This document shows positions 5,696 through 36,557 of a DNA stretch of 45,969 nucleotides, piece by piece. The stretch is from a virus. Within the stretch, counting starts at the first letter, position 1; each line of letters starts with the position of its first letter. The translations under genes and the position numbers were made by a program. Below the pieces are notes generated by a model. It did not search any database. It worked only from the letters and a program-made list of their open reading frames with translations, and was not told the origin of the DNA. Location of the stretch: the IMG/VR virus record IMGVR_UViG_3300022665_000379, positions 1-45,969 of that record; one strand, written 5' to 3'.

Positions 5696-5708
5696 ACGGA
5701 GGTTCCCC

Positions 5709-5927: not shown

Positions 5928-5934
5928 ACGTTTC

Positions 5935-22104: not shown

Positions 22105-22662
22105 ATGGAATGGTTTGTTCAATTATTCGAGACGTTTTTCTCAGTCTTTCCTCGGCTCATGTTGATCCGAACAACACACAAAGGGATCAAATGGCGCCAT
22201 GGAAACAACGTTAGTTGTTTAGATCCTGGACTGCATTGGTACTGGCCGATTGTGTCCGACATCGATGTGGTAGTTGTAGCCCGACGGCCTCTGAATCTAC
22301 CATCCCAGGTACTCATGACCAAGGACAAACACCCCGTTGCTCTTGGAGGCTTTGTCGTGTTCTGGATCAACGACGTGGTGAAAGCATACGGAGAGCGTAA
22401 CTGGGACGTCGAGCAAACTGTGGGAGAGATTTCCACGGCGGCTATTGTGGAGACGGTGATGCAGAACAATCTGGATGACCTACTTGCGGGGATCGCGTCG
22501 GGCCCTGAGTCGGATCTAATGACTAATCTCACAGAGAGTTGTAAGAAAGCTACTCGACAGTATGGTGTGGCGGTTCAACGCTGTGGGTTGACAGACTTCT
22601 GCACCTGCCAGACATTCAAACTCCTGGGAGATGGAGCGAGTCGTTTCTTACCCGAGGGATAA
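22105..22662 (+). CDS. SPFH / band-7 (stomatin-prohibitin-like) protein
   Basis: A 185-residue protein with its ATG directly after the previous stop. Residues about 15-135 follow the SPFH pattern: GIKWRHGNNVSCLDPGLHWYWP, VVVARRPLNLPSQVLMTKDK, PVALGGFVVFWINDVVKAYG, then a helical VEQTVGEISTAAIVETVM and NNLDDLLAGI. The N-terminus (MEWFVQLFETFFSVFPRLML) is hydrophobic and could insert in one membrane leaflet, as in stomatins. SPFH proteins build oligomeric membrane scaffolds and often hold proteases such as FtsH. No protease gene lies beside it. It sits within the tail module, so it may be a virion or late membrane protein. The domain call is firm; the role is unknown. Confidence 0.8.
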   Translation: MEWFVQLFETFFSVFPRLMLIRTTHKGIKWRHGNNVSCLDPGLHWYWPIVSDIDVVVVARRPLNLPSQVLMTKDKHPVALGGFVVFWINDVVKAYGERNWDVEQTVGEISTAAIVETVMQNNLDDLLAGIASGPESDLMTNLTESCKKATRQYGVAVQRCGLTDFCTCQTFKLLGDGASRFLPEG

Positions 22663-23926: not shown

Positions 23927-24175
23927 TCAATATTCGCCTCCTCGTAACTCATCTCGTTCCCGGCGCGTGGCTTCGAGATCGAATAGCAAATACTTCATGT
24001 CCAGACGCAACTGGCCCAACGCCTCCTGCACCAAATTCAAGATCCGCCGACGGCGACGGCTACCATCGACAACCTGTTGAAAGGCGATTTCGACCCTTCT
24101 GCGATGTTCATCGGGCAATCGTGAGATGGCGGTCCCCAACTTAGCCACGTCACGAGGAATTTGTTCATCGTTCAT
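23927..24175 (-). CDS. Small basic/acidic helical protein
   Basis: An 82-residue protein, last gene of the leftward arm. It is predicted to be all helix with heavy Arg content (RVEIAFQQVVDGSRRRRRIL, LLFDLEATRRERDELRGGEY). The gene starts directly at the stop of its upstream neighbour and ends 2 bases from the convergent late gene. A nucleic-acid contact is possible from the Arg run. No family was recognised. Confidence 0.5.
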   Translation of the reverse strand: MNDEQIPRDVAKLGTAISRLPDEHRRRVEIAFQQVVDGSRRRRRILNLVQEALGQLRLDMKYLLFDLEATRRERDELRGGEY

Positions 24176-24451
24176 CTAAGGAAATCTCTCCATGAGTGTG
24201 CGGACTTCATCCGGGTCCGGAGTACCACCTAGCTCACTCTCAGTATCATAATGCAACTCCTCATTGGAACACGCCGACTCCAACATGTAGAGTCCATGGG
24301 TAATTAGCTCGGCCTCTCGTTCGGTGAACAGCAGTTTATTGAGTTCTGAGACAAGCTCATCACGATCATAATGGTCGCTGCTCCACGTTTCCTCGTGGTC
24401 CAGTCCCATAGCTCTATATAGCCAGTCAGCAATTGTTTCTGCGAAAGTCAT
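24176..24451 (-). CDS. Hypothetical acidic helical protein
   Basis: A 91-residue acidic protein (MTFAETIADWLYRAMGLDHE, YDRDELVSELNKLLFTEREA, CSNEELHYDTESELG). It overlaps the end of the upstream gene by 26 bases and abuts the downstream gene, as expected in this packed operon. No domain was recognised. Confidence 0.55.
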   Translation of the reverse strand: MTFAETIADWLYRAMGLDHEETWSSDHYDRDELVSELNKLLFTEREAELITHGLYMLESACSNEELHYDTESELGGTPDPDEVRTLMERFP

Positions 24452-24593
24452 AAACCCTTCTCCTCTTCAGTAAACGTCGGAAGCACTTTGGACACCTGTA
24501 GTAAGGCGAACAGTGCGGACAAGGCGGACGACGATTAGAGTTCTCCAGTGAGGCCACGCGCTGTTTCAGTTGATCAAATTCTTTCTGTGTCAT
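24426..24593 (-). CDS. Small zinc-ribbon-like protein
   Basis: A 55-residue protein. The ATG at 24593 overlaps the stop of the micro-protein upstream (ATGA), which decides this start over an in-frame ATG at 24620. A short helix (TQKEFDQLKQRVASLENSN) is followed by two C-x-x-C knuckles (CPHC and CPKC) and a basic tail (FRRLLKRRRVYDFRRNNC). A single zinc site formed by the four cysteines is likely, which points to nucleic-acid or protein binding. Confidence 0.55.
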   Translation of the reverse strand: MTQKEFDQLKQRVASLENSNRRPPCPHCSPYYRCPKCFRRLLKRRRVYDFRRNNC

Positions 24594-24661
24594 AATCGGC
24601 CCACAATTATTGCTATGCATAGGAGTATAAGTAACACTATAAGCATCGTGACATTTGTCAT
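24590..24661 (-). CDS. 23-residue single-TM micro-protein
   Basis: A micro-protein made almost wholly of one membrane helix (MTNVTMLIVLLILLC followed by IAIIVGRL). Its ATG overlaps the stop of the exonuclease upstream and its stop overlaps the ATG of the zinc-ribbon gene, an ATGA join at both ends. Such coupling on both sides argues for real translation. Its function is unknown; small membrane peptides in phages can act on host membrane proteins. Confidence 0.55.
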   Translation of the reverse strand: MTNVTMLIVLLILLCIAIIVGRL

Positions 24662-25296
24662 GCTACATTCTCCGCGACACCCACCTGCGTCCAACGCTGG
24701 ATTAACTCAGCGACATCACGCGCATCGGCCAGGGCTGTGTGAGACACCCGTCCCTCCATCCCGGCCCTCTTCATGCAAGTCTTGGTGTCAGGAAGCACTG
24801 TGCCATCCACTTCGGGAGTCCAGTAGAGATTGCTCGGATCAATGAACCGGTGTCTGTGTGGTGCGAGCGTCCCAGGCAGTGCCTGCAATTTCGGAAGATC
24901 GAATACACCGAAGTTCTTACCCGCGAAAACGAACTTATCGTCTTCGAAACAATGCTTCCACTGCAGCATCCATTCATTCAGATACGAAATTGCGTGTGTG
25001 TAACGGACGTAAATACCCGGGTACTTAATCTCCTCCCTGCTAAAGTCCAGAACATCCACCCCCTTGGCCATGCGAACGCTGGCAATGGCGTACAGAATCT
25101 CCGCATTCATCGCAGCCGCATAGGGCTCCACGTAGTGGAATGACTCTCGCCAGACGTAGAATTCCAACACTGCGGGCACACACTTTGGGTAGTCGACGGA
25201 AGTCGTATCGAACATAGCCGCTCCTATCTGTATGATCGGTGCATCTACATCCAGACCAAGAGTTTCAGTGTCGATACTAATAGCAAAATTACTCAT
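24658..25296 (-). CDS. DEDDh 3'-5' exonuclease, Rv2179c-like
   Basis: A 212-residue protein. Motif I is ISIDTETLG (Asp and Glu metal ligands) followed by APIIQIGAAMFD, as in the Rv2179c-like exoribonuclease family. Motif II lies in FAGKNFGVFDLPKL, and motif III in SHTALADARDVAEL (catalytic His and Asp). An inserted FYVWRESFHYVEPYAAAMN segment matches the family. It should trim single-stranded RNA or DNA from the 3' end. It is overlapped at its stop by a 23-residue micro-protein. It could serve RNA processing or nucleotide recycling. Confidence 0.82.
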   Translation of the reverse strand: MSNFAISIDTETLGLDVDAPIIQIGAAMFDTTSVDYPKCVPAVLEFYVWRESFHYVEPYAAAMNAEILYAIASVRMAKGVDVLDFSREEIKYPGIYVRYTHAISYLNEWMLQWKHCFEDDKFVFAGKNFGVFDLPKLQALPGTLAPHRHRFIDPSNLYWTPEVDGTVLPDTKTCMKRAGMEGRVSHTALADARDVAELIQRWTQVGVAENVA

Positions 25297-25514
25297 TCTA
25301 CAATCTCCTCTTCGAGTCGCGATGCAATCTCGTCTAAAAGTTCCGGATGTTCAACAAAGCGTCTAAGAAGACTTTCCGAAATTGATGGACGCCTTTCATA
25401 ACCAGCATGCCAAGCAACCACAATCCCATTGATTGAAGTTCGCCAAGCACCCCATGTATCAAATTCAAATGTGACGACGGCTGCTGCCATCGCAAGTTCA
25501 TTCATGTTATCCAT
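25293..25514 (-). CDS. Small hypothetical protein
   Basis: A 73-residue protein. Its ATG lies 8 bases inside the end of the upstream gene; a second in-frame ATG three codons on is possible. A Trp-rich strand part (FEFDTWGAWRTSINGIVVAWHAG) precedes an acidic helical C-terminus (RRFVEHPELLDEIASRLEEE). It overlaps the exonuclease start by 4 bases. No family was recognised. Confidence 0.55.
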   Translation of the reverse strand: MDNMNELAMAAAVVTFEFDTWGAWRTSINGIVVAWHAGYERRPSISESLLRRFVEHPELLDEIASRLEEEIVE

Positions 25515-26076
25515 CGTTCTCTATTGCTCTCTCTAATTTCGCGAGAAACTCTTCCCCATTCGTCGTAAGCCAGCCGGCGGAGATCCCGCTGCCGTGTTCG
25601 GTAAAGCCACAGCTGTCAGCCCAGTACTTGAAGAACCAACAGGCGCGATCGTTCCCGTGTAGATTTGTTTCACGGAGCCTGTGTTTTCGAAACCAACTCT
25701 CAAAGTGCTCTCTCCCGACGACGTCCGGTGCTTTCTCCCCAATCAGCTTGAGCCCGTCACGGATATAGCGAGCATTGTCTTCCGGGACGCCGCAGCAACA
25801 GAAGTTTAATTCGTCGTGAATGTCATCAATGGTGGCCGGAGTCGGGGGCGGCTTGGCTAGATGGAACAACTTGTTCCAGGCATTCTCAAACCGATCTTCA
25901 GCTACGTAACACAAGAAGGCGTCAGAGTTGGTATATCTTGCTTTGTGTCGCAGTTCTAGGAGAACATCCTCCACTTCCTGACTTCGATGGTGGTCAGGGA
26001 AGAACAGCTTATCAGTCCCTCTCTGTAGCAGAATCCCCTTGAGCTTGACGTCGTATCCGAATTCAATGTTAGTCAT
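25507..26076 (-). CDS. Hypothetical protein
   Basis: A 189-residue soluble protein. Notable parts are LNFCCCGVPEDNARYIRDGL with three adjacent cysteines, a Trp/aromatic region (ACWFFKYWADSCGF), and a C-terminal GWLTTNGEEFLAKLERAI segment that recalls winged-helix 'T.xGxxfL' wings, suggesting but not proving a DNA-binding fold. It overlaps both neighbours by a few bases. No family was recognised. Confidence 0.6.
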   Translation of the reverse strand: MTNIEFGYDVKLKGILLQRGTDKLFFPDHHRSQEVEDVLLELRHKARYTNSDAFLCYVAEDRFENAWNKLFHLAKPPPTPATIDDIHDELNFCCCGVPEDNARYIRDGLKLIGEKAPDVVGREHFESWFRKHRLRETNLHGNDRACWFFKYWADSCGFTEHGSGISAGWLTTNGEEFLAKLERAIENDG

Positions 26077-26264
26077 ACCGGCACTCCTCCCATTCTACGA
26101 ATGAGATGTAGTGCTTCATGCTTAGTGGGAAATGAGAGTCCAACTTGACACTTCCCCGTCTGGGTTATGATGAGATTAAAACTGTTGTCAGTACACTTCG
26201 TCAATTTCATTTTGATGATCTGACTGGTGTTGATCCACTCATTCTCTTTGACTTCAATGATCAT
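26073..26264 (-). CDS. Small hypothetical protein
   Basis: A 63-residue beta-rich protein (EVKENEWINTSQIIKMKLTK, FNLIITQTGKCQVGLSFPTK) with a short final helix (HEALHLIRRMGG). The pattern is that of small phage regulators or anti-host proteins, but nothing specific is recognised. It overlaps the downstream gene by 4 bases. Confidence 0.55.
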   Translation of the reverse strand: MIIEVKENEWINTSQIIKMKLTKCTDNSFNLIITQTGKCQVGLSFPTKHEALHLIRRMGGVPV

Positions 26265-26265
26265 G

Positions 26266-26550
26266 TTACCAAGCCTTTATTGATTTGATTTGTCGGAGAA
26301 TCGCAATGGCAGTGTCACAAGCGATTGCCTTCTCTACTTTACCAACACCGACACCAACCTCGCATACACCCTTCGTGATCGAGCGTGTTGCCACACACGC
26401 TTCTTCTACACGTGTTACTGCATCCCTGAGTTTAGTCATTAAGTCGCCGGGGGCATAACCCGATATTTCGTCTACGATATTGGTGAGTTCAGTTAGTTCC
26501 TTCACCATAATCTGGTGATTTTCTCGATAAATGGGTGGATGCTTTCTCAT
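26266..26550 (-). CDS. Small helical hypothetical protein
   Basis: A 94-residue mostly helical protein (MVKELTELTNIVDEISGYAP, DLMTKLRDAVTRVEEACVAT). A middle GVCEVGVGVGKVEKAIACDT segment is Gly/Val-rich, and the end is a helix (AIAILRQIKSI). Its ATG overlaps the stop of the Thg1-like gene by 4 bases, so the two are coupled. Function is unknown. Confidence 0.55.
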   Translation of the reverse strand: MRKHPPIYRENHQIMVKELTELTNIVDEISGYAPGDLMTKLRDAVTRVEEACVATRSITKGVCEVGVGVGKVEKAIACDTAIAILRQIKSIKAW

Positions 26551-27260
26551 TGTGTCTCCGGTAAAGCTGCTGTAATGATGTCGTCAATGGCAGTAAAGTT
26601 CGGTGGGACACCATCACAGATCACCCATCCGAGGTCTCCTCTGTACATGAAAGTTCCATTTCGCTCCGCCAGCGTCAGATCAGTCGTCCAATTCTTCCCC
26701 ACACTGTGTAGCATTTCGTGCATATCTCCACAACTCTTACCATGAAGCTCAGTGTGGGAGAACACGGATTGTGCGTACATCGTGACACTGTTTCGATACC
26801 AGTCCTTGGCCCGCCACAAGAAATAATTCGCCACCTCCTCCAGAGGAATGTTGAATGCTCGGGCATCGAACTCCGCCTGTTTTCCCAGAGGCACATCAGT
26901 ATACTCCTGAAGATAACTATTGAAGACCCGAGTCGCAATTGATGCACTGATGCTTGTTAATTTGGCGAGGTTGTAGTCGAACCACGATTCTGTCTGAAGT
27001 GTGTCCCAGTCCGTAAGGAACAGGCTGATTTCATCTGACTGACGATATGCGACCTTACATCCCTGGGCCTCTTTTACTAACGCCTGCATCGCACTTTTGA
27101 TACCCCCCATGATACGCACATCGAACGGGTGGGTGAACCCCCGGGTGAAAGTATGAAACGCACGACCATCGACCCGGATGATTACAGGTGTCCGTCGAGT
27201 CAGTCTGAATTGAGCACGAGCTTCATAGTTAGCCTTCATACGGTCGCCGATGTCTTGCAT
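26547..27260 (-). CDS. Thg1-like 3'-5' polymerase (tRNAHis guanylyltransferase family)
   Basis: A 237-residue protein, the usual family length, with GGGAGG 8 bases before its ATG. Family motifs are intact: IIRVDGRAFHTFTRGF with Asp31, VAYRQSDEISLFL with Asp76 and Glu77 (the metal-binding carboxylates), and FDARAFNIPLEEVANYFLWR plus KDWYRNSVTMYAQSVFS, where the family has the 'WRxxDxxxN' motif. Thg1-like proteins add nucleotides to the 5' end of RNA in the 3'-5' direction, either G-1 of tRNAHis or templated repair of 5'-truncated tRNAs. In this window it accompanies an RNA ligase, so tRNA repair is the favoured inference. No tRNA gene was recognised nearby. Confidence 0.9.
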   Translation of the reverse strand: MQDIGDRMKANYEARAQFRLTRRTPVIIRVDGRAFHTFTRGFTHPFDVRIMGGIKSAMQALVKEAQGCKVAYRQSDEISLFLTDWDTLQTESWFDYNLAKLTSISASIATRVFNSYLQEYTDVPLGKQAEFDARAFNIPLEEVANYFLWRAKDWYRNSVTMYAQSVFSHTELHGKSCGDMHEMLHSVGKNWTTDLTLAERNGTFMYRGDLGWVICDGVPPNFTAIDDIITAALPETQ

Positions 27261-27309
27261 GGTACAGCCTCCCAGGGTTTGTGTTGATGTGACGGCAGAA
27301 GTCTTTCAT
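27229..27309 (-). CDS. Possible 26-residue micro-ORF
   Basis: A basic micro-ORF (MKDFCRHINTNPGRLYHARH then RRPYEG) whose ATG overlaps the stop of the upstream gene (ATGA). It reads into the start of the Thg1-like gene and may only serve to couple translation across the 45-base gap. No independent evidence of a functional peptide. Confidence 0.28.
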   Translation of the reverse strand: MKDFCRHINTNPGRLYHARHRRPYEG

Positions 27310-27572
27310 CGTATCTTAATCTCCCAACAACCGATCACAGCGACTTTGGGTATCTTGATAGGGCAGTCTACATGGTCGTTGTTTAAACATTGGCTGGCAG
27401 ATACGACATATGATTCATGATCTTCAGAAACAAGTAAACCGACCGTACGCATTCGCATATTACAATTATTCATGTAATCTTTCTCTTGCCAGCCTGTCTG
27501 ACCCATTGAATCGACCCAATGAATTTCAATGATTGGTAACTCATCATTATGTTGCTCTTTTAGAAGCATCAT
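27306..27572 (-). CDS. Small hypothetical protein
   Basis: An 88-residue protein (LPIIEIHWVDSMGQTGWQEK, YMNNCNMRMRTVGLLVSEDH, VPKVAVIGCWEIKIR-like end). Beta-rich composition with scattered Cys. It starts inside the end of the MazG-like gene by 4 bases. Its 'I.I.WVDS...GW' opening is seen in several small phage proteins of unknown role. No family named. Confidence 0.55.
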   Translation of the reverse strand: MMLLKEQHNDELPIIEIHWVDSMGQTGWQEKDYMNNCNMRMRTVGLLVSEDHESYVVSASQCLNNDHVDCPIKIPKVAVIGCWEIKIR

Positions 27573-27901
27573 AGCACCGTTGCGAACCCGTGCTTTTCGG
27601 AAGTTTTGTTGAATTTGCGTTTAACAGCTTCAGAAAGGTCAATGTGGAGCTGCATGGCTACAAGATCAGCACAGATGACGACGTCGCCCAACTCATCTTC
27701 GAGGTGTTCAATGTTGGGATCACCCCCAACTAGGCAGCGCAGATGCCGTTCAAATTTCTTGATTTGGTTGCACACCTCGCCGACTTCACCTGCGAGCTCC
27801 AGCCCTCGGAAGGTCAAATCTATCTCGCCATCTGTGTTGCCCCACTCAAAGTCTCGGGTAACGTTGGCCATCCGTAAGTCTTTGAAATCAATTGCCATCA
27901 T
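27569..27901 (-). CDS. MazG-like nucleotide pyrophosphohydrolase
   Basis: A 110-residue protein. A compact MazG fold is seen: GLELAGEVGEVCNQIKKFER (E-x-x-E metal site) and LEDELGDVVICADLVAMQL (E-x-x-D metal site), then a C-terminal helix (IDLSEAVKRKFNKTSEKHGF). Members hydrolyse NTPs or dNTPs to the monophosphate and pyrophosphate and tune nucleotide or alarmone pools. The first two Met codons are adjacent; a third (MANVTRDFEW) is also possible. It overlaps neighbouring genes by 4 and 14 bases. Confidence 0.85.
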   Translation of the reverse strand: MMAIDFKDLRMANVTRDFEWGNTDGEIDLTFRGLELAGEVGEVCNQIKKFERHLRCLVGGDPNIEHLEDELGDVVICADLVAMQLHIDLSEAVKRKFNKTSEKHGFATVL

Positions 27902-28202
27902 TTGGTCTCCAAGTTATCATGGCTTTGTCCCAGTAAACTTCAGCATCTCCCCGTGAGATCTCCAATACGCCGACAGCGAAGCACAACAATTCCTCCTTCT
28001 TCTGTTTAGCATTACGATTGATCAGATGCCATTGTTCCATAGTCTCCGGCATGGCTATATTTCGATGCCGTCTCGTACAGACTGTCTTATTATACGCCTC
28101 GCATGATTCATGGTATTCACTAACAGTGTCCGCCACGAAAGCAAACCTGGGGTCAGGATCATCATCATACGCCCCGCTGTAGAATTCTCCCTGGTCAATC
28201 AT
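27888..28202 (-). CDS. Hypothetical protein
   Basis: A 104-residue protein. An acidic N-terminus (FYSGAYDDDPDPRFAFVADT) is followed by a helical Glu/Lys-rich body (LINRNAKQKKEELLCFAVGV) and a Trp-containing end. Its start overlaps a 47-residue gene just upstream (28195-28338). No domain was recognised. Confidence 0.55.
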   Translation of the reverse strand: MIDQGEFYSGAYDDDPDPRFAFVADTVSEYHESCEAYNKTVCTRRHRNIAMPETMEQWHLINRNAKQKKEELLCFAVGVLEISRGDAEVYWDKAMITWRPNDGN

Positions 28203-28338
28203 CGGACATCATCTCCTGAGCTATATCGTAGCCCTCCCAGTTGTCGACACCAGCTCCTCGCAGAGCTTCAAGGAAATTCTGGTCTGCTATAAGCTGATTG
28301 AATTGTTCAACAGTAATGGTAATAGTCTCGGCGCTCAT
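28195..28338 (-). CDS. 47-residue hypothetical protein
   Basis: A short gene in the gap between two longer ones: MSAETITITVEQFNQLIADQ, a helical NFLEALRGAGVDNWEGYDIA, and the end QEMMSDD. Its ATG overlaps the stop of the upstream gene by one base (TAATG) and its stop overlaps the start of the next gene by 8 bases. A predicted helix-turn arrangement with an acidic tail; the opening TITITVEQFNQLI is common in small phage proteins. Function unknown. Confidence 0.6.
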   Translation of the reverse strand: MSAETITITVEQFNQLIADQNFLEALRGAGVDNWEGYDIAQEMMSDD

Positions 28339-28637
28339 TAGTACCCCTCCTCTATCCATTCCTGATACTGCTTTTGGGCCTCTTCATCCTTTGTGTGAAA
28401 CTCACAAGGTAAGATTTTCAAACAATATCCATCTGGCGAGCTTATACCGCTATCCGTTTTCTGTTGCTGTAGCTTTCCAACAAGTTGACGATATAACACG
28501 TCGTTTGATTTCGCCATATCGTCCGCTGTATCAATATCGTCCAGAAGGTCGTAAAGGTGAATCACCACACGTTGCAGATACTCCATATCGGTAAATTCGC
28601 TAATCGGAGTTCCCACGTCTTCAGTCACATCACTCAT
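28338..28637 (-). CDS. Hypothetical protein
   Basis: A 99-residue protein with a helical, acidic first half (DMEYLQRVVIHLYDLLDDID) and a second half with two cysteines (DGYCLKILPCEFHTKDEEA) and a C-terminal helix (QKQYQEWIEEGY). It overlaps its upstream gene by 4 bases. No family recognised. Confidence 0.55.
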   Translation of the reverse strand: MSDVTEDVGTPISEFTDMEYLQRVVIHLYDLLDDIDTADDMAKSNDVLYRQLVGKLQQQKTDSGISSPDGYCLKILPCEFHTKDEEAQKQYQEWIEEGY

Positions 28638-29155
28638 GGCTCACGTACCTCACATTTGTTGCAAATCTCGGTAGTAACGTGCTCGTTGATGAGCACACAA
28701 AATGGGACGACCACAGGTGGGTCACTGTACTTCTTAGACACCCGTCGATGCCGACAGGGCAGCCATGGCGGTGACCAGTGGCCATCGGCCTCTTGGGTCC
28801 ACCCCTCGGGTGCGTTGGGGATCTCCCCATGTATGCTGCCATCGTCAGTGATGACATAGGGACGTTTGTTCGTGATTTCCGGCACGGACGCGGGGCCCAA
28901 GGGGGCCTGCTCCAGTTGGGGCCAGAACTTCTCGGGACATCCTGCTACCAACATAGCAGCCTTCGCTGGAATGTAACAACCGCACGACAGACACTGATTC
29001 TTCTTCCTGAACTCACAAGGCTCACAGATACTCAGGCGTTCCTTGTATTGCTCCTCCGTAGTTTTCGAGAATCCTGATCCCGCGAACTTCAACATGCTCA
29101 TTGTGAACGCCCACCCCTTCTGAGCTACGGAAGGGGTTTTTTCATTTTCAGCCAT
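28634..29155 (-). CDS. Cys-rich zinc-binding-like protein
   Basis: A 173-residue protein if it starts at ATG 29155, which overlaps the upstream stop by 8 bases; a longer GTG form from 29197 is also open. The centre has a cluster ICEPCEFRKKNQCLSCGCYI then GCPEKFWPQ, with six to seven cysteines in C-x-x-C pairs, a probable zinc site. Another pair lies near the C-terminus (EICNKCEV). This Cys pattern (CxxCExxxxxxCxxCGCxIxxK...CP...W) recurs in small phage proteins of unknown role. A scaffold for nucleic acid or protein contacts is possible. Confidence 0.65.
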   Translation of the reverse strand: MAENEKTPSVAQKGWAFTMSMLKFAGSGFSKTTEEQYKERLSICEPCEFRKKNQCLSCGCYIPAKAAMLVAGCPEKFWPQLEQAPLGPASVPEITNKRPYVITDDGSIHGEIPNAPEGWTQEADGHWSPPWLPCRHRRVSKKYSDPPVVVPFCVLINEHVTTEICNKCEVREP

Positions 29156-29375
29156 TGAGGTGCTCTTGGTTACGTTTCTGGTAATACCCTTCATCACAAT
29201 CGATCATGATAGTCCGCGTCCAAGTAACCGATCCCTCAACTAACGAACAGGCCGCGCCGGGGTAGACCCGAATCTCCTGGATAGTCCCCTCCCACGTACC
29301 CTTGACTGGTGCATCACGAGGAAATTCGGATAAGGCATCGGTAAGATCACCGACAGTTTCAATTACTTTGCTCAC
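29148..29375 (-). CDS. Small hypothetical protein
   Basis: A 75-residue protein (VIETVGDLTDALSEFPRDAP, GTIQEIRVYPGAACSLVEGS). The 'VGDLTDALSEFPRDAPV' opening resembles small phage proteins with an 'L...L..fP.d..V' pattern of unknown function. It abuts the RNA ligase gene by one base. Confidence 0.55.
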   Translation of the reverse strand: MSKVIETVGDLTDALSEFPRDAPVKGTWEGTIQEIRVYPGAACSLVEGSVTWTRTIMIDCDEGYYQKRNQEHLNG

Positions 29376-30268
29376 TAGAACACCTCCGACAAAAGTTCCT
29401 TAACACGGCACGACACGAGCTTGGATAACTTCTTGAAATCAATTGTGGGGTACTTGTACTTCTTGACGAAATTCCAAGATTCCTCACGCACCAGGTCGTA
29501 GTATACTGTGTTGAGTAGGCGAGGTATGTATCGGCTGGTCCAGCCTAAGGGATCATCACTTTCAATTTTGGCCTTCACCTTATCAACCATCGCCTTCGTG
29601 ACGAACTCGTTCGCAATCCTCAGCTCCACAGTAGACTCACCTACCTTGGTCGGGGGGCCCATTTCACGAATATGCTTTTCTTTGAACTCTGCCGCCACAA
29701 CCTTGGCCCACGTGGTCCGGCCATAGCGGTTCCGGAAGTCGTAGTTCTTGATGACGATGCCCTCACCTTGGCAGCCATCCTGCATGAGGAAGGTATTCTG
29801 AGGCAGGAGCTGGTTGAAATCGTATGTCAATGCATTCTCAACTACAGCCATGCACGGGATGTAGTCAATGCCATACTCCTCCAGCTTGGATCGATATTCG
29901 TCATACGGTAAATGATACGGTGCTTCTCCATCAATCACAACATCGAACACATAGAAGCGGCGCCAGGCTTCCTCACGATATGTCTTCAGAGAATGGGGCA
30001 CGAGCCACTCTCCGTACAAACGAAGGCCCTGCCATGTCATGAAGAAGTCCCGTATACCGGAACTCTGGACCCACGCTGCGAACCCAGCGTTGTCATCCTC
30101 TGGGGTGATCACTCGTCGGCGGGACGCGCATCGCACTTCGCCATCTTCCAACCACACCGAGGAGTTGGTACCATCTATCTTGGGGAACACATGGCAAGTG
30201 CCGTCCAGTAACCCATCAACCTCGGTGGTCCCGAGCCGCTCAATATGTTGATACTTGTTAAACATCAT
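29375..30268 (-). CDS. RNA ligase (nucleotidyltransferase superfamily)
   Basis: A 297-residue protein starting at ATG 30268 behind GGGAGAG; a longer form from 30307 is open but would overlap the upstream gene more. Motif I is FPKIDGTNSSVW with the Lys that takes AMP. Motif IIIa-like sequence is RRFYVFDVVIDGE; motif IV is GEGIVIKNYDF; motif V is TWAKVVAAEFKEKH. The SRRRVITPEDDNAGFAAW segment is typical of the RNA ligase (PF09414-type) family. It should seal 5'-phosphate to 3'-hydroxyl RNA ends. With the Thg1-like protein and the HAD phosphatase it may repair broken tRNAs. A DNA ligase role is less likely given the family features. Confidence 0.88.
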   Translation of the reverse strand: MMFNKYQHIERLGTTEVDGLLDGTCHVFPKIDGTNSSVWLEDGEVRCASRRRVITPEDDNAGFAAWVQSSGIRDFFMTWQGLRLYGEWLVPHSLKTYREEAWRRFYVFDVVIDGEAPYHLPYDEYRSKLEEYGIDYIPCMAVVENALTYDFNQLLPQNTFLMQDGCQGEGIVIKNYDFRNRYGRTTWAKVVAAEFKEKHIREMGPPTKVGESTVELRIANEFVTKAMVDKVKAKIESDDPLGWTSRYIPRLLNTVYYDLVREESWNFVKKYKYPTIDFKKLSKLVSCRVKELLSEVF

Positions 30269-30524
30269 CTTCTCTCCCGCATCTAATCGGACATGATCGG
30301 CAGTCAAAAGAATTCACTTCTTCCCAATACAGAGCGTGGTCTTCATTCACGCAGTAGAACCTGGCAATCCCGTTGTCGACTCCGTGAATACGTTTGTGGC
30401 ACTCTGGCCACTTCGCCGGCTCCACAGTCACCTCCGTGCATGTGTACTCGGAGAGGAGATCGACTTGGTGTCCTTCCGGCGGGAAGGGCAGAAAGTAAGC
30501 GGGGAAGGCTGGTTCTTTATTCAC
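30258..30524 (-). CDS. Small Cys-rich hypothetical protein
   Basis: An 88-residue protein with a GTG start overlapping the upstream stop (GTGA) and GGGGAA before it. Pro-rich opening (PAFPAYFLPFPPEGHQ), then cysteines at TCTEV, PECHK, FYCVNE and SFDCRSCPIRCGRE. A zinc site formed by the C-terminal cysteines is plausible. No family recognised. Confidence 0.55.
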   Translation of the reverse strand: MNKEPAFPAYFLPFPPEGHQVDLLSEYTCTEVTVEPAKWPECHKRIHGVDNGIARFYCVNEDHALYWEEVNSFDCRSCPIRCGREDDV

Positions 30525-30787
30525 TCTATTGGATTCCCCTGCTCATCATACGAGGCACACAACTCTTCAAACATTGACGCGAGATGTTGGATAGACTGCA
30601 ATCGCGGGCCCAAGTTATCCAGGAACGCGCCTACCGAAAAGGGGTTCATCTCATCGCCAATTTCTTCCAGATCATCAACTATCCCCTCCATTAAGGTATC
30701 ATGCATATCCTCCACCCGTTCTAGTTGTCCGCGTATGCGATTCAGAAGTTGGGGATTATCCTTCTGCCATTGCTTGATAGTTTGCAT
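30521..30787 (-). CDS. Helical hypothetical protein
   Basis: An 88-residue protein starting at ATG 30787, which has AGGAG 7 bases upstream; a longer form from 30808 is open but less supported. It is all helix (MQTIKQWQKDNPQLLNRIRG, VEDMHDTLMEGIVDDLEEIG, QHLASMFEELCASYDEQ). It overlaps the end of the HAD gene by about 30 bases. Function unknown. Confidence 0.55.
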   Translation of the reverse strand: MQTIKQWQKDNPQLLNRIRGQLERVEDMHDTLMEGIVDDLEEIGDEMNPFSVGAFLDNLGPRLQSIQHLASMFEELCASYDEQGNPIE

Positions 30788-31352
30788 TCTCAATCTCCTG
30801 GAATTCAATTTCTAATGTATCCATGATATCGCACATGCGATTATCATTCCACGGGCGCGGCAGGACTATCGCATGCCCACCCCACTCACGCATGGCATCA
30901 CAATTGGACGGAAGATCGTCAATCAACACCGTATCCTCACGAGCTAACCACCACTTTCGGGGTGTGATTGCATACTGACATTGCATCCAATCAGGCAAAT
31001 TTCTCTCGATCCATTCAAACTTACCTGCCATACATTCCGGACATTCGATCGGAGTTGTTGCAATCAAAATGTTGGTGGGTCCTACGTGCTGACAAGCCCA
31101 ATCAAGAATCTCATGGAAGTCTGGCGTCAGCGTGGCATGGCTCCACACGAAACGGGTTACTGAACCCCAGAATTCCGCGAGATCCATTTTAGGATTCAAT
31201 GTCATTGTAGCCAATGCACAACGAACGTCAAAGCCGCAGTCAATAGGGTACTGATCATACGAGTTTATGTCAACGCCGAAGTGCCGTAGAAGATCCAACG
31301 TGATAGTGTTTAGCACATCATCCATGTCGAGAACGATTCGCTTAATCTTCAT
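30756..31352 (-). CDS. HAD-family 5'-nucleotidase-like phosphatase
   Basis: A 198-residue protein. Motif I is VLDMDDVLN (nucleophile Asp and the second Asp). Motif II Thr lies in ILIATTPIECPE. Motif III Lys is PRKWW. Motif IV is VLIDDLPSNCDAM. The TL...GGHAIVLPRPWN ending is typical of 5'(3')-deoxyribonucleotidases and related phage HAD enzymes. It likely dephosphorylates nucleotides, or 3'-phosphate ends of nucleic acid as in polynucleotide phosphatases; the sequence alone does not choose between these. The start overlaps the upstream gene by 11 bases. Confidence 0.8.
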   Translation of the reverse strand: MKIKRIVLDMDDVLNTITLDLLRHFGVDINSYDQYPIDCGFDVRCALATMTLNPKMDLAEFWGSVTRFVWSHATLTPDFHEILDWACQHVGPTNILIATTPIECPECMAGKFEWIERNLPDWMQCQYAITPRKWWLAREDTVLIDDLPSNCDAMREWGGHAIVLPRPWNDNRMCDIMDTLEIEFQEIENANYQAMAEG

Positions 31353-31683
31353 AGATACACCCCACGTAGAACTTGCCGTGCTTTTTCAGCAATTTGAGAA
31401 TAACGCTAGATGCCTTAGAATAAAATGTTATTCTACGCCCCTCAATTAAAGCCCAACCGCTTTGATATTCTCCTGTGGATTCAAATTTCACACGATCCTG
31501 GCCTGGCCTATCATAGGCAGTGAATCTGATATTACGAGCATTATTGGGTATATCAAAATACTCCAATATGCTCTCGATACAGATCATCCAACCATAATCT
31601 TTTTGGGGTCCGTAAAGGATACCCCACGTATTAAGACCACTTGGAGTATTTGTATTCAGCTTAGGTGTTGTAAACAAGATCAT
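31342..31683 (-). CDS. Tandem paralogue B, hypothetical
   Basis: A 113-residue protein with an ATGA overlap to its upstream copy. The shared pattern with that copy is MI-x-(F/Y)-x-TP-x-L at the start, IC(I/L)E-x-(I/V)-x-E(Y/F)F-x-IP in the middle, then R-x-(G/A)-x-DRV-x-(F/L), and Y(V/I)-x-C(I/V)YE(D/E) at the end. Two gene copies thus lie head to tail. It is a beta-rich small soluble protein with no known family here. Confidence 0.6.
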   Translation of the reverse strand: MILFTTPKLNTNTPSGLNTWGILYGPQKDYGWMICIESILEYFDIPNNARNIRFTAYDRPGQDRVKFESTGEYQSGWALIEGRRITFYSKASSVILKLLKKHGKFYVGCIYED

Positions 31684-32009
31684 GGTGCCCCCTCCTCATA
31701 GACGCATTGGATGTACAGCTGGTCGCGTCCGGCCATGTGACGGTTGACAATAGAATTCATTGTGTAATAGAAACTCACCTCCTCACCGTCTAGACTAAAT
31801 TCAATGATTCCACCTAAATCCTCCGCCGTCAATTCCACACGATCCTCTGCGGGGTGGTTGTGAACAATAAATTGCACACTCTTTGTATCCGCAGGAATCA
31901 CAAAGAATTCACGAACTCTTTCCAAACAGATGTGCAAGTTCCCCTTAGAGAAAGATGGGAACCCCAGATATTCTCTGAGTCTTAATTCGGGTGTCTCGTA
32001 GATGATCAT
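31680..32009 (-). CDS. Tandem paralogue A, hypothetical
   Basis: A 109-residue protein. ATG 32009 overlaps the stop of the upstream gene (ATGA) and lines up with the start of paralogue B; an in-frame start at 32021 is less likely. It contains MIIYETPELRLREYLGF, ICLERVREFFVIPADTK, HNHPAEDRVELTAEDLGG and YIQCVYEEGAP. It diverged from paralogue B but kept its spacing, which suggests two related roles or a heterodimer. Confidence 0.6.
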   Translation of the reverse strand: MIIYETPELRLREYLGFPSFSKGNLHICLERVREFFVIPADTKSVQFIVHNHPAEDRVELTAEDLGGIIEFSLDGEEVSFYYTMNSIVNRHMAGRDQLYIQCVYEEGAP

Positions 32010-32188
32010 ACGTCTTTCCATCCTCTCAGTCTCCGTCGGAGACGCTTAAAAATCCCATTCTCCTGGCGCCATTCAATGTTGTCTCGACGAATCTCAATCC
32101 GTTTCACCCGCCGCTTCTGCGCACTATTTGCGGTGTGTGTCAAAGTGAGGACCGCGATGATCCCCAGGACGATGTATACGAGTGTCAT
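32006..32188 (-). CDS. Small single-TM basic protein
   Basis: A 60-residue protein with one N-terminal membrane segment (LVYIVLGIIAVLTLTH) and a strongly basic cytosolic-type tail (KRRVKRIEIRRDNIEWRQEN, KRLRRRLRGWK). The layout is that of type I/III small membrane proteins. It overlaps a second TM gene (32124-32297) by 65 bases in a different frame. Membrane role in the secreted cassette is inferred. Confidence 0.6.
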   Translation of the reverse strand: MTLVYIVLGIIAVLTLTHTANSAQKRRVKRIEIRRDNIEWRQENGIFKRLRRRLRGWKDV

Positions 32189-32297
32189 AAAACCTTCTCT
32201 TTTCGATATTAGTGACTAGTAAAGTGATGGCAAACAGTATACCAACGGCAATCCAGATGGTGATTGGTGATTCGATCATGTCTGTGCTGTAACTCAT
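32124..32297 (-). CDS. 57-residue single-TM protein
   Basis: A small gene whose ATG overlaps the upstream stop (ATGA). Its membrane helix (SPITIWIAVGILFAITLLVT) follows an acidic N-terminal head (MSYSTDMIE) and precedes a basic tail (NIEKRRFYDTRIHRPGDHRG). The last 65 bases overlap the next TM gene. The coupling supports it; function unknown. Overlapping TM genes can form a pair such as holin-antiholin or spanin subunits, but no lysis motif is seen. Confidence 0.55.
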   Translation of the reverse strand: MSYSTDMIESPITIWIAVGILFAITLLVTNIEKRRFYDTRIHRPGDHRGPHFDTHRK

Positions 32298-32557
32298 GCT
32301 GCCCCCTCTGTTAACACTAACTTGCCAGTTTTGTTTGCTGTGCCGGAATTAAACTCCTCACCATTAGCCCATTTATAGGTCCCTACATCATCCTTGAAGA
32401 CTACTACACCACCCCCTCGAACACGATACCCAAGGAAGTTCTTGACAAGGTACCCAGAACGTTTCAATGCACGGGCAATCGGGCAATCTGTTACATCACA
32501 ATACTCGCCTTCGAGATCTTCAGGAATAATTGTCAATTCAGCGGGTAGATCTTTCAT
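32294..32557 (-). CDS. Small hypothetical protein
   Basis: An 87-residue protein (MKDLPAELTIIPEDLEGEYC, DCPIARALKRSGYLVKNFLG, GGGVVVFKDDVGTYKWANGE). The CDVTDCPIARALKR segment is typical of small phage proteins in which an alpha-helical 'DCPIArAlKr' strip precedes beta strands; it is widely found but unnamed. It overlaps both the TadG-like stop and the TM start (ATGA). Confidence 0.6.
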   Translation of the reverse strand: MKDLPAELTIIPEDLEGEYCDVTDCPIARALKRSGYLVKNFLGYRVRGGGVVVFKDDVGTYKWANGEEFNSGTANKTGKLVLTEGAA

Positions 32558-33726
32558 TTCACTAACCTCAGTTGGTGTACGTTTGAACCTTCTGTTATTG
32601 GCTGAACGGCCAAGTACTTGGTGTTGCCTTGCAGATCCACATGCATGATCTTGACGGCAACAAACTTCTTGATAACGAATTGGGAATTAGTTCCGTTCCC
32701 ACTGGCACTGGAATAGAGGGCTAGAAATCTTGGTTGACCAATGATACCTTCATAGTCACCTGACCCGCCCATGAAAGCTTTCTCCACTGTAGCAACCATA
32801 CCGGTCTGACCAGAAACCGTATCGCCCACCGAGATCTGGTTCCCATGGAAGGCCATATCATTGGCACTGGGTCCCTTATCGATCTGACGCATCAAAGTAG
32901 CAGCAGAACTGTTAGCTCCGATCTGGATAGCTCCGAAGTTACCTGGCGGCATACCCACACCATTCCAGGCACCGGGGAATATGAACACCTCCGGGATACC
33001 ATCATCCCCGAAATTGTCACCATCTCCCCCGGAGGCCAGTGTATTCCACTTGTCTTCGCTTGTGGTGAATGGCAGCAACGTGGGGTAATCAACCCGCGCT
33101 ATCGCTGTCTGAGACGTCTCGAATATGCCGTTGAGATTGGGAAAGAAGAGACCTGCCGAGCCATTCGTGTGATCCCTACGTATATGGATCGTAACCTGGA
33201 CGGCATTGGGTTGAACATCGTCTGGGGTCATCACCCCATCCTGGAACCGGCCAACGATAATATCCCCGCCCTCAGTATTCCAGGAGTTAGGGTCCGTGGT
33301 GTAGTCACCAGGCCGCACATTGTTTACGTGTAGATCTACAAACTGCCGGGCAGTGTCATGGCCCTCACCAGTGTAGGTGACTCCAATGCCGATCTTCGTA
33401 AGCTCCAAGGCATTATTGACGTGTAACGCCCCGGCACCAGCAAGGGCCCCCGAATCCGCGCATCTCTGTGCTTCAGCCTTAACCAGCCCCATGTAGGCAT
33501 GATCTATGACGAAAGCCATCAGGAGACACATAAAGGACATAAGGATGGCTGCAAGCGGAGCGATGGCTCCACACCGGATTATCATGGCAGCTCGCTCGTA
33601 CGGAAAATTATCCTGGAGCTTCCGGTAATGTCGCTCATTAGCTCGTTTCTTAATCTTACTGGACACGGAAATCTCCACACCATAAAGTAACAGGATGGAT
33701 AACGCAGCGAGTGCAAGGTCAATCAT
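32554..33726 (-). CDS. TadG-like (Flp pilus-type) membrane protein
   Basis: A 390-residue protein starting at ATG 33726, which has GGGAG 6 bases upstream; a longer form from 33756 is open but lacks a ribosome site. Two membrane helices are seen: DLALAALSILLLYGVEISVS (about residues 3-22) and GAIAPLAAILMSFMCLLMAF (about 52-72). After the second comes VIDHAYMGLVKAEAQRCADS then GALAGAGAL, the mark of TadE/TadG-type pilin-like proteins, where a helix exposes 'A-x-A-A-L-A-G-A'. The rest (about 90-390) is a beta-rich extracellular domain rich in Gly/Asn/Asp. TadG normally serves tight-adherence pilus systems of bacteria. No other Tad component occurs in the window. A putative own promoter precedes it. 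Confidence 0.7.
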   Translation of the reverse strand: MIDLALAALSILLLYGVEISVSSKIKKRANERHYRKLQDNFPYERAAMIIRCGAIAPLAAILMSFMCLLMAFVIDHAYMGLVKAEAQRCADSGALAGAGALHVNNALELTKIGIGVTYTGEGHDTARQFVDLHVNNVRPGDYTTDPNSWNTEGGDIIVGRFQDGVMTPDDVQPNAVQVTIHIRRDHTNGSAGLFFPNLNGIFETSQTAIARVDYPTLLPFTTSEDKWNTLASGGDGDNFGDDGIPEVFIFPGAWNGVGMPPGNFGAIQIGANSSAATLMRQIDKGPSANDMAFHGNQISVGDTVSGQTGMVATVEKAFMGGSGDYEGIIGQPRFLALYSSASGNGTNSQFVIKKFVAVKIMHVDLQGNTKYLAVQPITEGSNVHQLRLVK

Positions 33727-33763
33727 GAGGGACTCCCAGGGATACAAAAAGGTCATTATCTTC

Positions 33764-33792
33764 AGTATACCTTACGAATTGAGTATGAGCAA
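33764..33792 (-). promoter_or_regulatory. Putative sigma70-like promoter before the TadG-like gene
   Basis: On the minus strand, TTGCTC (plus 33787-33792) and TATACT (plus 33764-33769) are separated by 17 bases. The -10 box matches the consensus at five of six positions, the -35 box at three. The start would fall about 30 bases before ATG 33726. It lies in the 158-base gap between the two genes, the largest gap in the leftward arm. Confidence 0.4.
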
Positions 33793-33914
33793 ATAACAGG
33801 AAATTACTTGCATCGCGCACCCCAGGAAACACAGGGAGGAGAACAAACTCCACCCTGGGCTTCTAGCGTGATAACTAGTGAACTCAGATACCAGATCATG
33901 AACATAACCAAGGA

Positions 33915-34421
33915 TCACCTCACGATGATGTAACGGACTCCCCGATACATGAAACTCGGCACAGGTTCTATCTTGGGCGTTTTCGGACGAGGCTGTGGAG
34001 CCTGATAGACTGGCTGAATCGGCACCAGAGGTACATTCCATGGAGTCGCCTGGTACACCGGTCGCCATGGATTAGTGATGAAGGCTCCCATGCCAAATCC
34101 TCCAAATCCTCCAAACGTTCCACCAGCTGCCACTGCACTTGCCTCCACGTTCAAATTGACGACATTGCTGGCACTGGAGCTGGCCGACGCAGTTTGAGAT
34201 TGCGTCTGGTGCTGTCGGTTCACATTGGTGTTGTGATTGTGAGGGGATCGAGGGGATCGAGGGGGCTTTGGCGGCTTCGGTGGCTTCTGGTGATGACCGT
34301 AGCCATTGCCCTTGTGCTCAGCATGCCCCTTCCCCTGTTGGTTTTCGTGCCGGTCCCCAGGGGAGCCCAGTGCCGGCGCTGCAAGCGCGAATGTAAGTAG
34401 TACTGCTATGAAGGTCTTCAT
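33915..34421 (-). CDS. Secreted Pro/His/Gly-rich protein
   Basis: A 168-residue protein with AGGAGAG before its ATG. A Sec signal peptide (MKTFIAVLLTFALAAPALG, cut near ALG-SP) is followed by a His/Lys/Gly/Pro segment (HAEHKGNGYGHHQKPPKPPK), a Ser/Gln/Ala/Asn low-complexity zone (QTQSQTASASSSASNVVNLN), a Gly/Phe strip (GGFGGFGMGAFITNPW), a Pro/Gln-rich part, and an end FMYRGVRYIIVR. It is a small exported, mostly disordered protein; no enzyme motif. The His cluster could bind metal. Sits with the TadG-like gene. Confidence 0.65.
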   Translation of the reverse strand: MKTFIAVLLTFALAAPALGSPGDRHENQQGKGHAEHKGNGYGHHQKPPKPPKPPRSPRSPHNHNTNVNRQHQTQSQTASASSSASNVVNLNVEASAVAAGGTFGGFGGFGMGAFITNPWRPVYQATPWNVPLVPIQPVYQAPQPRPKTPKIEPVPSFMYRGVRYIIVR

Positions 34422-34429
34422 GTTCTCTC

Positions 34430-34897
34430 CTATTGTCTAACGTAGGGGTTAATGATCACAACCGGTCCACCACCCCAGCGGGTCTGCGTGCGGTAGGTAC
34501 GTTGCATACTAATGCCCGAATAACGAGTTTCGGAAGTCGCACCAATTGTTGCACCAGTGGATGAAGCTTGATCGCTCTGATTAAGATCGCTGGTTGAAGT
34601 GTAATCATTGGTCTGCACAAGAACATCCAAGGCAGGATTCCGGACAATCCATCCATCCGCGCGATCACGGGCTCGCTGGTAGGCAGCCGCATTCTGCGCG
34701 CGTGCCCATTTAGCGAAAGCTTCATCGCTCATAGGTACGGTATAGATCGGGAGCTTATCAAACACACCGATATTCTCAAAAGGCATAGCCATAGTGTGAA
34801 CACCCAACTCAGAGTCAACGGGTGCCATTGGCCCCGGTAGATCTGCGTTCGGAAAAGGAGTTGTGATCAGAAACAGTAATGGAAACAGAAAATGCAT
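34430..34897 (-). CDS. Secreted hypothetical protein
   Basis: A 155-residue protein. ATG 34897 has GGAGAG before it; an upstream in-frame start would lack this. A signal peptide (MHFLFPLLFLITTPFPNA) precedes the mature part: an acidic stretch, helical MSDEAFAKWARAQNAAAYQR, a Ser/Thr/Gln/Asn-rich zone (TSTSDLNQSDQASSTGATIG), and an end GGGPVVIINPYVRQ. There is no lipobox cysteine, so it is not a lipoprotein spanin. Ser/Gln/Asn-rich middles occur in both secreted neighbours. Function unknown. Confidence 0.62.
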   Translation of the reverse strand: MHFLFPLLFLITTPFPNADLPGPMAPVDSELGVHTMAMPFENIGVFDKLPIYTVPMSDEAFAKWARAQNAAAYQRARDRADGWIVRNPALDVLVQTNDYTSTSDLNQSDQASSTGATIGATSETRYSGISMQRTYRTQTRWGGGPVVIINPYVRQ

Positions 34898-34907
34898 AGG
34901 TTCTCTC

Positions 34908-35000
34908 CTATAAAGTGATTGCATACACAACGAAGAATATCATTGACAGGGATACCCAGCCGATGACGAAACAAAGTACACAGGTGTCTATATCTTTCAT
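34908..35000 (-). CDS. 30-residue single-TM micro-protein
   Basis: MKDIDTCVLCFVIGWVSLSM plus IFFVVYAITL: one membrane helix after a short acidic head, with AAGGA 8 bases before the ATG. It fills most of the gap between the methyltransferase and the secreted protein, and its stop lies 10 bases before the next gene's start. A ribosome site and placement support it. Confidence 0.5.
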   Translation of the reverse strand: MKDIDTCVLCFVIGWVSLSMIFFVVYAITL

Positions 35001-35012
35001 GAATTTAATCCT

Positions 35013-35756
35013 TCAGGCAGCCTCGGGGTGCTCCTCTACTAAGTGTTGGTAGTAAACTTTGGATTTCTCGATCAAGGTACACTGGCGGTCAATCCTCTTG
35101 CACACTCGAAGCGTAGTACCGGTGCCCCCAAAGGGGTCCAGCACATGATCACCGGGTCGCGTGGTCAGACGGATCGCCCGCTCGACTAGATCCTCATGGA
35201 GCTGTGTCTCATGCCACTTGCGTTTCACCTTGGCATTGCCAGGGACTCTCGGGTAGTCGTAAACGTCGTTCGGGAATGTGTACTCGTCCCAGTAAACATC
35301 GCCGGGCACTTTCCCCCGCTTATCGGCTCGCTTATCCCCATTCAGTTGTCTCCACGACGGAATCCGAATGTCATCGGGATACTCTGTATGGTCTCGTACC
35401 ATAAGACGCCAGAGAGGACGGTGGGCATTCCCGAGCGCGGAGCCATTCTGTTGGTAGAACGTGATGACTTGAACTCCTGGGTCGAATTTGTATTCGGGGT
35501 TGTACTTAATCCAGTACGCCATAGTGTTGGCAACTTCAAGGGTCCATCTAGCATTGAAGGACACCCAAAGAACAGGTGTGTGAGCAACTGCTTCTATGAT
35601 CCAACAATGCAGTAAATGGGAGTATTCGTCATAGGGTAGTTGGTCATCAACATCCTCGTATTTGAGTCCTATGTTGTCCGGAGGGTCCATGAAGATACAA
35701 TCCGCTGGCCGTAAATGTTCCAGGCAATCACCGAGAATGATATTATGATTCTTCAT
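35013..35756 (-). CDS. DNA methyltransferase (N4-cytosine/N6-adenine type)
   Basis: A 247-residue protein. Catalytic motif IV (IFMDPPDNIGLKY) lies near residue 23, and the SAM-binding motif I (HVLDPFGGTGTTLRVC) near 215, the order of beta-class amino-methyltransferases. The central part (TVLWVSFNARWTLE..., KRKWHETQLHEDLVERAIR) holds the target-recognition features; RRIWHETQ-like sequences before the last motif are common in this class. It should methylate adenine N6 or cytosine N4. No restriction endonuclease lies beside it, so protection from host restriction or regulation is likely. Specificity is unknown. Confidence 0.85.
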   Translation of the reverse strand: MKNHNIILGDCLEHLRPADCIFMDPPDNIGLKYEDVDDQLPYDEYSHLLHCWIIEAVAHTPVLWVSFNARWTLEVANTMAYWIKYNPEYKFDPGVQVITFYQQNGSALGNAHRPLWRLMVRDHTEYPDDIRIPSWRQLNGDKRADKRGKVPGDVYWDEYTFPNDVYDYPRVPGNAKVKRKWHETQLHEDLVERAIRLTTRPGDHVLDPFGGTGTTLRVCKRIDRQCTLIEKSKVYYQHLVEEHPEAA

Positions 35757-35940
35757 CTAGAACCTCCACGCCACAAATCATTCCAACACTTAGTACCCAA
35801 CTGTCCCCGGTATACTCCCAGATCGCACGCCGCCCATCATCTCCGAGAATAATGAAACGGTTGGGATTGATCTCTTCATACCCCTGCTTACGGAGTGACT
35901 CACGGAAAGCATCCGCCATTCCTATTGCTAGAAATTTCAT
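35743..35940 (-). CDS. Small hypothetical protein
   Basis: A 65-residue protein (MADAFRESLRKQGYEEINPN, RAIWEYTGDSWVLSVGMICG). A helix and three to four strands are expected. It overlaps the methyltransferase start by 14 bases and the exonuclease stop by 4. No family recognised. Confidence 0.55.
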   Translation of the reverse strand: MKFLAIGMADAFRESLRKQGYEEINPNRFIILGDDGRRAIWEYTGDSWVLSVGMICGVEVLDEES

Positions 35941-36557
35941 AATAGCACATCAAACTTAGTAAGAGCCGCATACACCCGGGCGCCAGTGATGGCATCAGGC
36001 AATGCATCGTGAGGTCGAGGATTCACAATCCCGAAGTAGTTACTCAACCACTTCAGATTCACTTCCTTAAACGGAATTTCCTTCCCCTGATAAGCTGCCA
36101 TGTCATTGATCCCTAGAGCAAGAGCTTGGCTGTCGCGCGCTATACCCATGAAGATCTCATCCAGAAGTGGGACTCCCAGCCAAAGCCCGGCCATGCCCTT
36201 CTCGAATGGCCAGTTGTGTGCCACCGGAATCATCCGACGATCAATTGGTAAGCCGAGTTTGTTCTTCCAATCAATCAATGCATCCTCCACTTCGTCTGGA
36301 TGGGCAGCCGTCTCCAAATCCTTCAGAGACAGCTGGTTCACTCGCATAGCCAGCGGGTCCGCCCGCTCCGGAAACAGCGGACGCATGTAGCACGTGAAAT
36401 TCCTCAACGTAGGATGGGGCTCGTAGTCAATGTCAAGCGGCTGTATCGCGACCTGAATGATTTCATGATACCCCAAGTGCGTACCAGTGGTCTCCAGGTC
36501 GACCGAGGCCAGCAGGTTACCATTGTGGTGAGGCAGTGAGCGGTATGAACGTGGCAT
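35937..36557 (-). CDS. DEDDh exonuclease (DnaQ-like)
   Basis: A 206-residue protein. Motif I LLASVDLETTGTHLG (Asp, Glu), then IIQVAIQPLD. Motif II PVAHNWPFEKGMAGL (Asn and helix) and motif III RPHDALPDAITGARVYAAL (His, Asp) are seen in order. This is a full DEDDh core of the polymerase III epsilon type. It could act in DNA proofreading or degradation. Its start overlaps the stop of the upstream membrane protein (TAATG). Confidence 0.83.
   Translation of the reverse strand: MPRSYRSLPHHNGNLLASVDLETTGTHLGYHEIIQVAIQPLDIDYEPHPTLRNFTCYMRPLFPERADPLAMRVNQLSLKDLETAAHPDEVEDALIDWKNKLGLPIDRRMIPVAHNWPFEKGMAGLWLGVPLLDEIFMGIARDSQALALGINDMAAYQGKEIPFKEVNLKWLSNYFGIVNPRPHDALPDAITGARVYAALTKFDVLL

Follow-up and report, generated by a model that had tools for sequence, protein, structure and literature searches.

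In a recent model of the Tad pilus, the tip is a complex of TadE, TadF and TadG, whose backbone is the large TadG with its modular C-terminal domain (PMC12075869). Phages disable host pili for superinfection exclusion by means of other proteins (PMC11436027, PMC11656802). Genes encoding TadE (PF07811) and TadG-like (PF13400) proteins, annotated as hypothetical, are found in the Burkholderia P2-like phages Milagro, Momento and Musica, which carry no pilus machine. Here, we describe a TadG-like protein and the cassette of small secreted and membrane proteins around it in the viral record IMGVR_UViG_3300022665_000379 (G000; hereafter the window, that is, the complete IMG/VR record of 45,969 bases, class linear). 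The cassette had been singled out in an earlier note made from the sequence alone. The cassette is real; it can now be described more exactly and proves somewhat less singular than first stated: a rare, phage-borne and re-anchored TadG-like protein lies with small exported proteins in a phage-specific island.

A TadG-like protein of planctomycete type

The identity of the 400-codon open reading frame (ORF) as a genuine TadG-like protein of planctomycete type is well supported by sequence homology (Table 1). It scores above the cut-off for the Pfam family Tad (PF13400; 24.3 bits against 22.3, and 29.3 bits in the genome search), whereas Tad_C (PF09977) remains below threshold at 15.7 bits against 22.1; Tad_C is above its cut-off in the homologs L036, L063 and L064 and in gp54, the TadG-like gene of Milagro. 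Hydropathy predicts two membrane helices, at about residues 9 to 33 (TM1) and 65 to 83, and the protein is laid out as TM1, a basic loop (34–61), a Tad pilin-like helix (63–85) and an ectodomain that extends to residue ∼387. By the positive-inside rule, the loop would be cytoplasmic and the ectodomain outside. The host-family motif R61-C-G63-A is retained after the basic loop. Shine-Dalgarno-like sites precede the first ATG and an alternative ATG at 33726 (GGAG site, giving 390 amino acids), both of which lie before TM1, and none was found at ATG 33585, which follows it; ATG 33726 is the likelier start, and TM1 is retained with either. The TadG resemblance seen in the earlier note, with two predicted helices and a large outer domain, is correct, and full-length homology to a planctomycete Tad protein family makes it stronger than could be known from the sequence alone. 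A derivation of TM1 from the neighboring micro-proteins was considered and rejected, their similarity being no higher than that of shuffled sequences. No solved structural homolog of the protein was found by sequence.

The best tblastn match lies in a Pirellula genome (residues 54–387, 38% identity, E value 1.4e-28), and 17 of 392 planctomycete genomes were matched in all. A scan of 84,980 species genomes with the ectodomain, in which each candidate locus was checked against the window sequence, confirmed two loci; they lie in the planctomycetes Pirellula sp. PB1.007 and Aporhodopirellula aestuarii. A consensus row for the host family served as a search probe only. Alignment of 15 planctomycete homologs shows homology across the Tad helix and the whole ectodomain. 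In each of the 15, the only membrane helix immediately follows a basic leader that ends in the Gly motif, and none has the extra N-terminal helix and basic loop that precede the pilin-like helix in the phage copy. We treat the number of membrane helices as a difference within the planctomycete TadG-like family and not as a feature that defines it. In neighborhoods of 5 to 12 kb, a TadE-like gene (PF07811) adjoins most host homologs, and a secreted-protein family adjoins the homolog in seven loci. This secreted family, found beside stand-alone TadE/TadG loci (L061–L075), carries a 'VEEDWEL'-like motif in the seven loci and has no Pfam match.

In a phylogenetic tree, the TadG-like protein groups on a long branch with the planctomycete proteins and not with those of the Burkholderia phages; the tree does not fix its place more closely. 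The gene has a GC content of 0.515, compared with 0.49 for the phage. Most likely, judging from these sequence relationships, the phage lineage acquired it from a planctomycete host and retained it among its early accessory genes. A scan of genome contigs with the tail protein found no host; distant tail matches in six planctomycete genomes share no gene order with the window, so that TadG homology is the single basis for assigning a host.

Rarity among phages

IMG/VR pattern scans with single proteins (the TadG-like protein, its Tad segment and signal-peptide protein 1) found no relatives, and profile-pattern scans gave 50 pattern matches for the host family and 138 for the Tad helix, with no confirmed relative among them. 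Similarly, tblastn with the TadG-like protein gave no match in 50,697 phage and 72,556 plasmid genomes. A weak tblastn lead, from a query with R instead of C at one residue, pointed to the Burkholderia phages. With the queries used, which have limited sensitivity, Milagro, Momento and Musica were the only TadE/TadG records among the 50,697 phage genomes; phage TadE/TadG genes thus look very rare. Momento (L007) has two TadG-like genes (1218–2282, minus strand, and 3396–5954, plus strand), one of which is split by a transposase insertion, in addition to TadE. The earlier note knew of no described phage system with this set of genes. The set as such was found in no other phage of the collections searched; however, the three Burkholderia phages carry TadE and TadG-like genes without a pilus machine. 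Of the searches that the note proposed, those of phage collections did not recover the cassette; those of host genomes recovered TadG-like homologs in planctomycetes, with unrelated secreted neighbors.

The surrounding cassette

Table 1. Features of the window discussed in the text; all coordinates are positions in the window.
Feature	Coordinates	Strand	Evidence or remark
TadG-like protein, 400 amino acids	32554–33756	minus	PF13400, tblastn, transmembrane scan, start sites
Promoter candidate TTGCTC-N17-TATACT	33764–33792	minus	read from sequence
Signal-peptide protein 1, 155 amino acids from ATG 34897	34430–34897	minus	Shine-Dalgarno AGGAG; no family
Signal-peptide protein 2, 168 amino acids	33915–34421	minus	Shine-Dalgarno AGGAG; H/K/P-rich, then S/A/Q- and G-rich
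Single-transmembrane micro-protein, 30 amino acids	34908–35000	minus	Shine-Dalgarno AAGGA, 8-nucleotide spacing; hydropathy 2.63
Soluble protein, 87 amino acids	32294–32557	minus	ATG overlaps TadG-like stop (ATGA); GAGGT site
Single-transmembrane protein, 57 amino acids, basic tail	32124–32297	minus	transmembrane scan, start sites
Single-transmembrane protein, 60 amino acids, basic tail	32006–32188	minus	overlaps 57-amino acid gene in another frame
Candidate exported micro-ORF, 33 amino acids, Cys-containing	33804–33905	minus	9-nucleotide Shine-Dalgarno match GAGGTGATC
Two adjacent paralogous 113-amino acid genes	31342–31683 and 31680–32021	minus	continue the same operon
Accessory island, about 25–28 genes	23927–35936	minus	∼12 kb; holds the cassette; missing at the junction in nine relatives
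Core exonuclease, one island edge	35937–36557	minus	33–45% in relatives
Core tail protein, other side	19255–22104	plus	23–52% in relatives

Two signal-peptide proteins and three small single-transmembrane proteins had been reported within 3 kb, and all were found. Six of the seven cassette genes encode membrane or secreted proteins, compared with about 2 of 56 elsewhere (hypergeometric p ∼3e-6), and this clustering is not chance. The composition was incomplete as first listed, since a soluble 87-amino acid protein and a possible 33-amino acid exported micro-ORF also belong to it. The cassette continues directly into the 113-amino acid genes (26% identity over their length, E value 5e-17) and the nucleotidase and RNA-ligase genes and, therefore, has no sharp edge. 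Translation of most cassette ORFs is supported by Shine-Dalgarno matches at their starts and by ATGA overlaps at several gene boundaries; the match of the 33-amino acid micro-ORF partly coincides with the preceding stop codon. For signal-peptide protein 1, the listed TTG start at 34930 is unlikely, and the ATG in Table 1 is preferred. This protein has no relatives by Pfam, PHROG or NCBIfam, and signal-peptide protein 2 has no family in the same three collections, its matches in planctomycetes being of low complexity only. The low-complexity middles ascribed to both fit the 168-amino acid protein, and the 155-amino acid protein less well. The 60-amino acid single-transmembrane protein is possibly a paralog of the 57-amino acid one.

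A dedicated promoter had also been suggested. The candidate is present, and a transcript from it would begin at the first ATG of the TadG-like gene or immediately beside it, but its −35 box matches at only three of six positions. It was not among the sites listed by the promoter scan, and the region shows no clear enrichment of promoter-like sites (13 against 8.5 ± 2.5). The 158-base intergenic region (33757–33914, minus strand) folds better than shuffled sequences (z = −2.85) and ends in a weak promoter-like pair, and its predicted RNA hairpin overlaps the candidate micro-ORF. From these sequence features, a separate transcript for the TadG-like gene is possible.

Accessory island and phage relatives

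Twelve IMG/VR contigs, found through the primase and tail proteins, served as relatives. In nine of them, the tail and exonuclease genes face each other at a distance of 1.1 to 5.5 kb, versus 13.8 kb in the window. The intervening island also encodes a methyltransferase, a nucleotidase, an RNA ligase and a tRNA-His guanylyltransferase; of its genes, the methyltransferase alone is well matched in a relative, where it lies at a different location, and GC content is similar inside and outside (0.494 and 0.489). The cassette and any Tad protein are absent from all relatives examined. The cassette is thus part of a lineage-specific accessory extension of a co-directional early operon, and the idea that it is a conserved system was rejected, the relatives being without it. 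A second exonuclease (24658–25296), considered as a duplicate marking an insertion, was rejected as it has no similarity to the first. The tRNA-His guanylyltransferase (Thg1-like) and RNA ligase (26547–27260 and 29375–30307, minus strand) may form a tRNA-repair pair. One relative, G003 (IMGVR_UViG_3300028840_001168), encodes tandem signal-peptide proteins (L020, 8250–9328) elsewhere in its genome; the PEP-CTERM motif is clear in one of them (28.0 bits against a cut-off of 20.7) and scores below the cut-off in the other.

The window encodes a major head protein, a tape measure protein and tail proteins, as well as a primase-type protein with DUF5906, a ParB-domain protein and a helicase. Neither terminase nor portal was recognized among its proteins, and the first ORF extends to the record edge, so the window is a genome fragment. 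At that edge, in the neighborhood of structural genes, lies a protein with DUF2341 and two Laminin-G-type domains (56–2380, plus strand). A Band 7/SPFH (stomatin-like) protein (PF01145, 9e-17; 22105–22662, plus strand) adjoins the tail genes and is kept beside them in the relatives L004 and L012, which is unusual for a phage core gene.

Proposed role and alternatives

In the most likely reading, to which we give a probability of roughly 0.4, the phage protein is a host-derived, minor-pilin-like inner-membrane protein that changes or blocks a Tad-type filament or surface of the host. The host Sec machinery would insert it as an inner-membrane hairpin with the basic loop inside and the ectodomain periplasmic or outside, where it could meet host proteins of the TadE/TadG type. 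The simplest mechanism that accounts for every part of the layout builds on the modelled role of TadG as backbone of the pilus tip: the phage copy would enter or titrate the TadE/TadG complexes of the host, anchored in the membrane by its extra helix. A filament or surface used by other phages, or by the cell itself, would thereby be altered or blocked, plausibly to keep other phages off. The secreted proteins and micro-proteins would have the same envelope as their target, and these small products probably change the infected cell's surface.

Several observations weigh against a pilus role. No full tad operon lies around the host homologs in their 5 to 12 kb neighborhoods, and the pilus role of the TadG-like family itself is therefore unproven. 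No TadE/TadF partner (PF07811 is absent), prepilin peptidase or pilus gene was recognized in the record. The cassette was found in no other phage of the collections searched, so there is no measurable signal of selection. The AlphaFold model, built from three alignment rows, has a mean pLDDT (predicted local distance difference test) of 33.6 and is too poor for use. The role is deduced from sequence and context, and the planctomycete host is putative. The earlier note had concluded from the absence of a pilus motor and secretin that the phage must use host export systems. No pilus gene was recognized, but the missing motor says little because the record is fragmentary and the host homologs similarly lie outside pilus loci in the neighborhoods covered; use of the host export machinery, with action at the host surface, is nevertheless reasonable.

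A pilus-independent surface role ranks just below the filament reading and is nearly as likely. The cassette would then be a moron acting on the host envelope, its TadG-like protein and secreted partners serving as stand-alone surface proteins in adhesion, aggregation or receptor masking, and the motor-less planctomycete TadE/TadG loci may serve the cell in the same way. In the neighborhoods covered, the host homologs sit apart from pilus operons, next to a TadE gene and often one for a secreted protein; this is consistent with such a role, as is the different exported pair of G003, as if exported accessory genes were exchanged within the phage family. Set against it, signal-peptide proteins 1 and 2 are unlike the secreted partner family of the hosts, and the TadE/TadG proteins studied so far function in pili (PMC12075869). 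We consider it improbable that the cassette is genetic freight, a captured host gene with fast-turnover small ORFs and no selected role: it is found only in this phage among the relatives and its small proteins have no family, but the TadG-like ORF of 400 codons is intact and, at a best identity of 34%, lies on a long branch, with a GC content like that of the phage, which suggests long residence under constraint, and the gene is translationally coupled to its neighbors. An unusual lysis module, with holin- or spanin-like micro-proteins and periplasmic helpers, also seems unlikely. Several small transmembrane proteins do adjoin signal-peptide proteins, no endolysin was recognized in the families scanned, and the relative G012 has a lipoprotein-like and a holin-like ORF at the same junction. 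However, the cassette proteins include no peptidoglycan hydrolase, endolysin or lipoprotein, the TadG-like protein has host Tad proteins as its homologs and is encoded in an early operon, and a small transmembrane protein is encoded after the capsid gene, in the late region, both in the window (5574–5927) and in relatives. Moreover, terminase and portal are absent from the record, and lysis genes may likewise lie in the missing part.

Taken further, the modified-filament reading would describe a decoy pilus-tip protein: a host-derived TadG with an extra anchor, which jams or re-programs the host's Tad filament and has secreted and micro-membrane partners of its own. This would be a form of superinfection exclusion or surface control that is not known to have been described, its outline possibly common to the Burkholderia phages; in this full form, we regard it as a long shot. 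If true, a pilus-tip homolog would be a different strategy from known phage pilus shut-off, which relies on small motor-binding inhibitors. The system would also give a way into what the stand-alone TadE/TadG genes of Planctomycetota do, which is poorly understood, and as few planctomycete phages are known, the phage family itself is useful.

Comparison with known systems

Like the TadG/KilN minor pilins (PMC12075869), the phage protein is predicted to join an N-terminal pilin helix to a large exposed modular domain; the phage has no recognized TadE/TadF partner or pilus locus, however. The proposed outcome, a disabled or changed host pilus, resembles that of the phage anti-pilus proteins (Tip/Aqs1 acting on PilB, Zip on PilZ, and a Pf4 protein; PMC11656802, PMC11436027), but Tip/Aqs1 and Zip are small inhibitors of pilus motors or regulators, the Pf4 protein belongs to a filamentous phage, and none is a pilin homolog. 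The Burkholderia phage genes are likewise accessory phage genes with PF13400 and without pilus machinery. They differ in that these phages are temperate and P2-like, have a clear TadE partner and lack the extra helix, and their TadG-like proteins, on a separate branch of the tree, share only 27% identity with that of the window over residues 55 to 220. The planctomycete Tad proteins (PF13400 with Tad_C) have the same Tad helix, the same basic leader with Gly and the same ectodomain to the C-terminus, at 28 to 39% identity. The host genes encode one membrane helix and usually have a TadE neighbor, whereas the phage copy has no TadE, stands beside unrelated secreted proteins and carries an extra helix.

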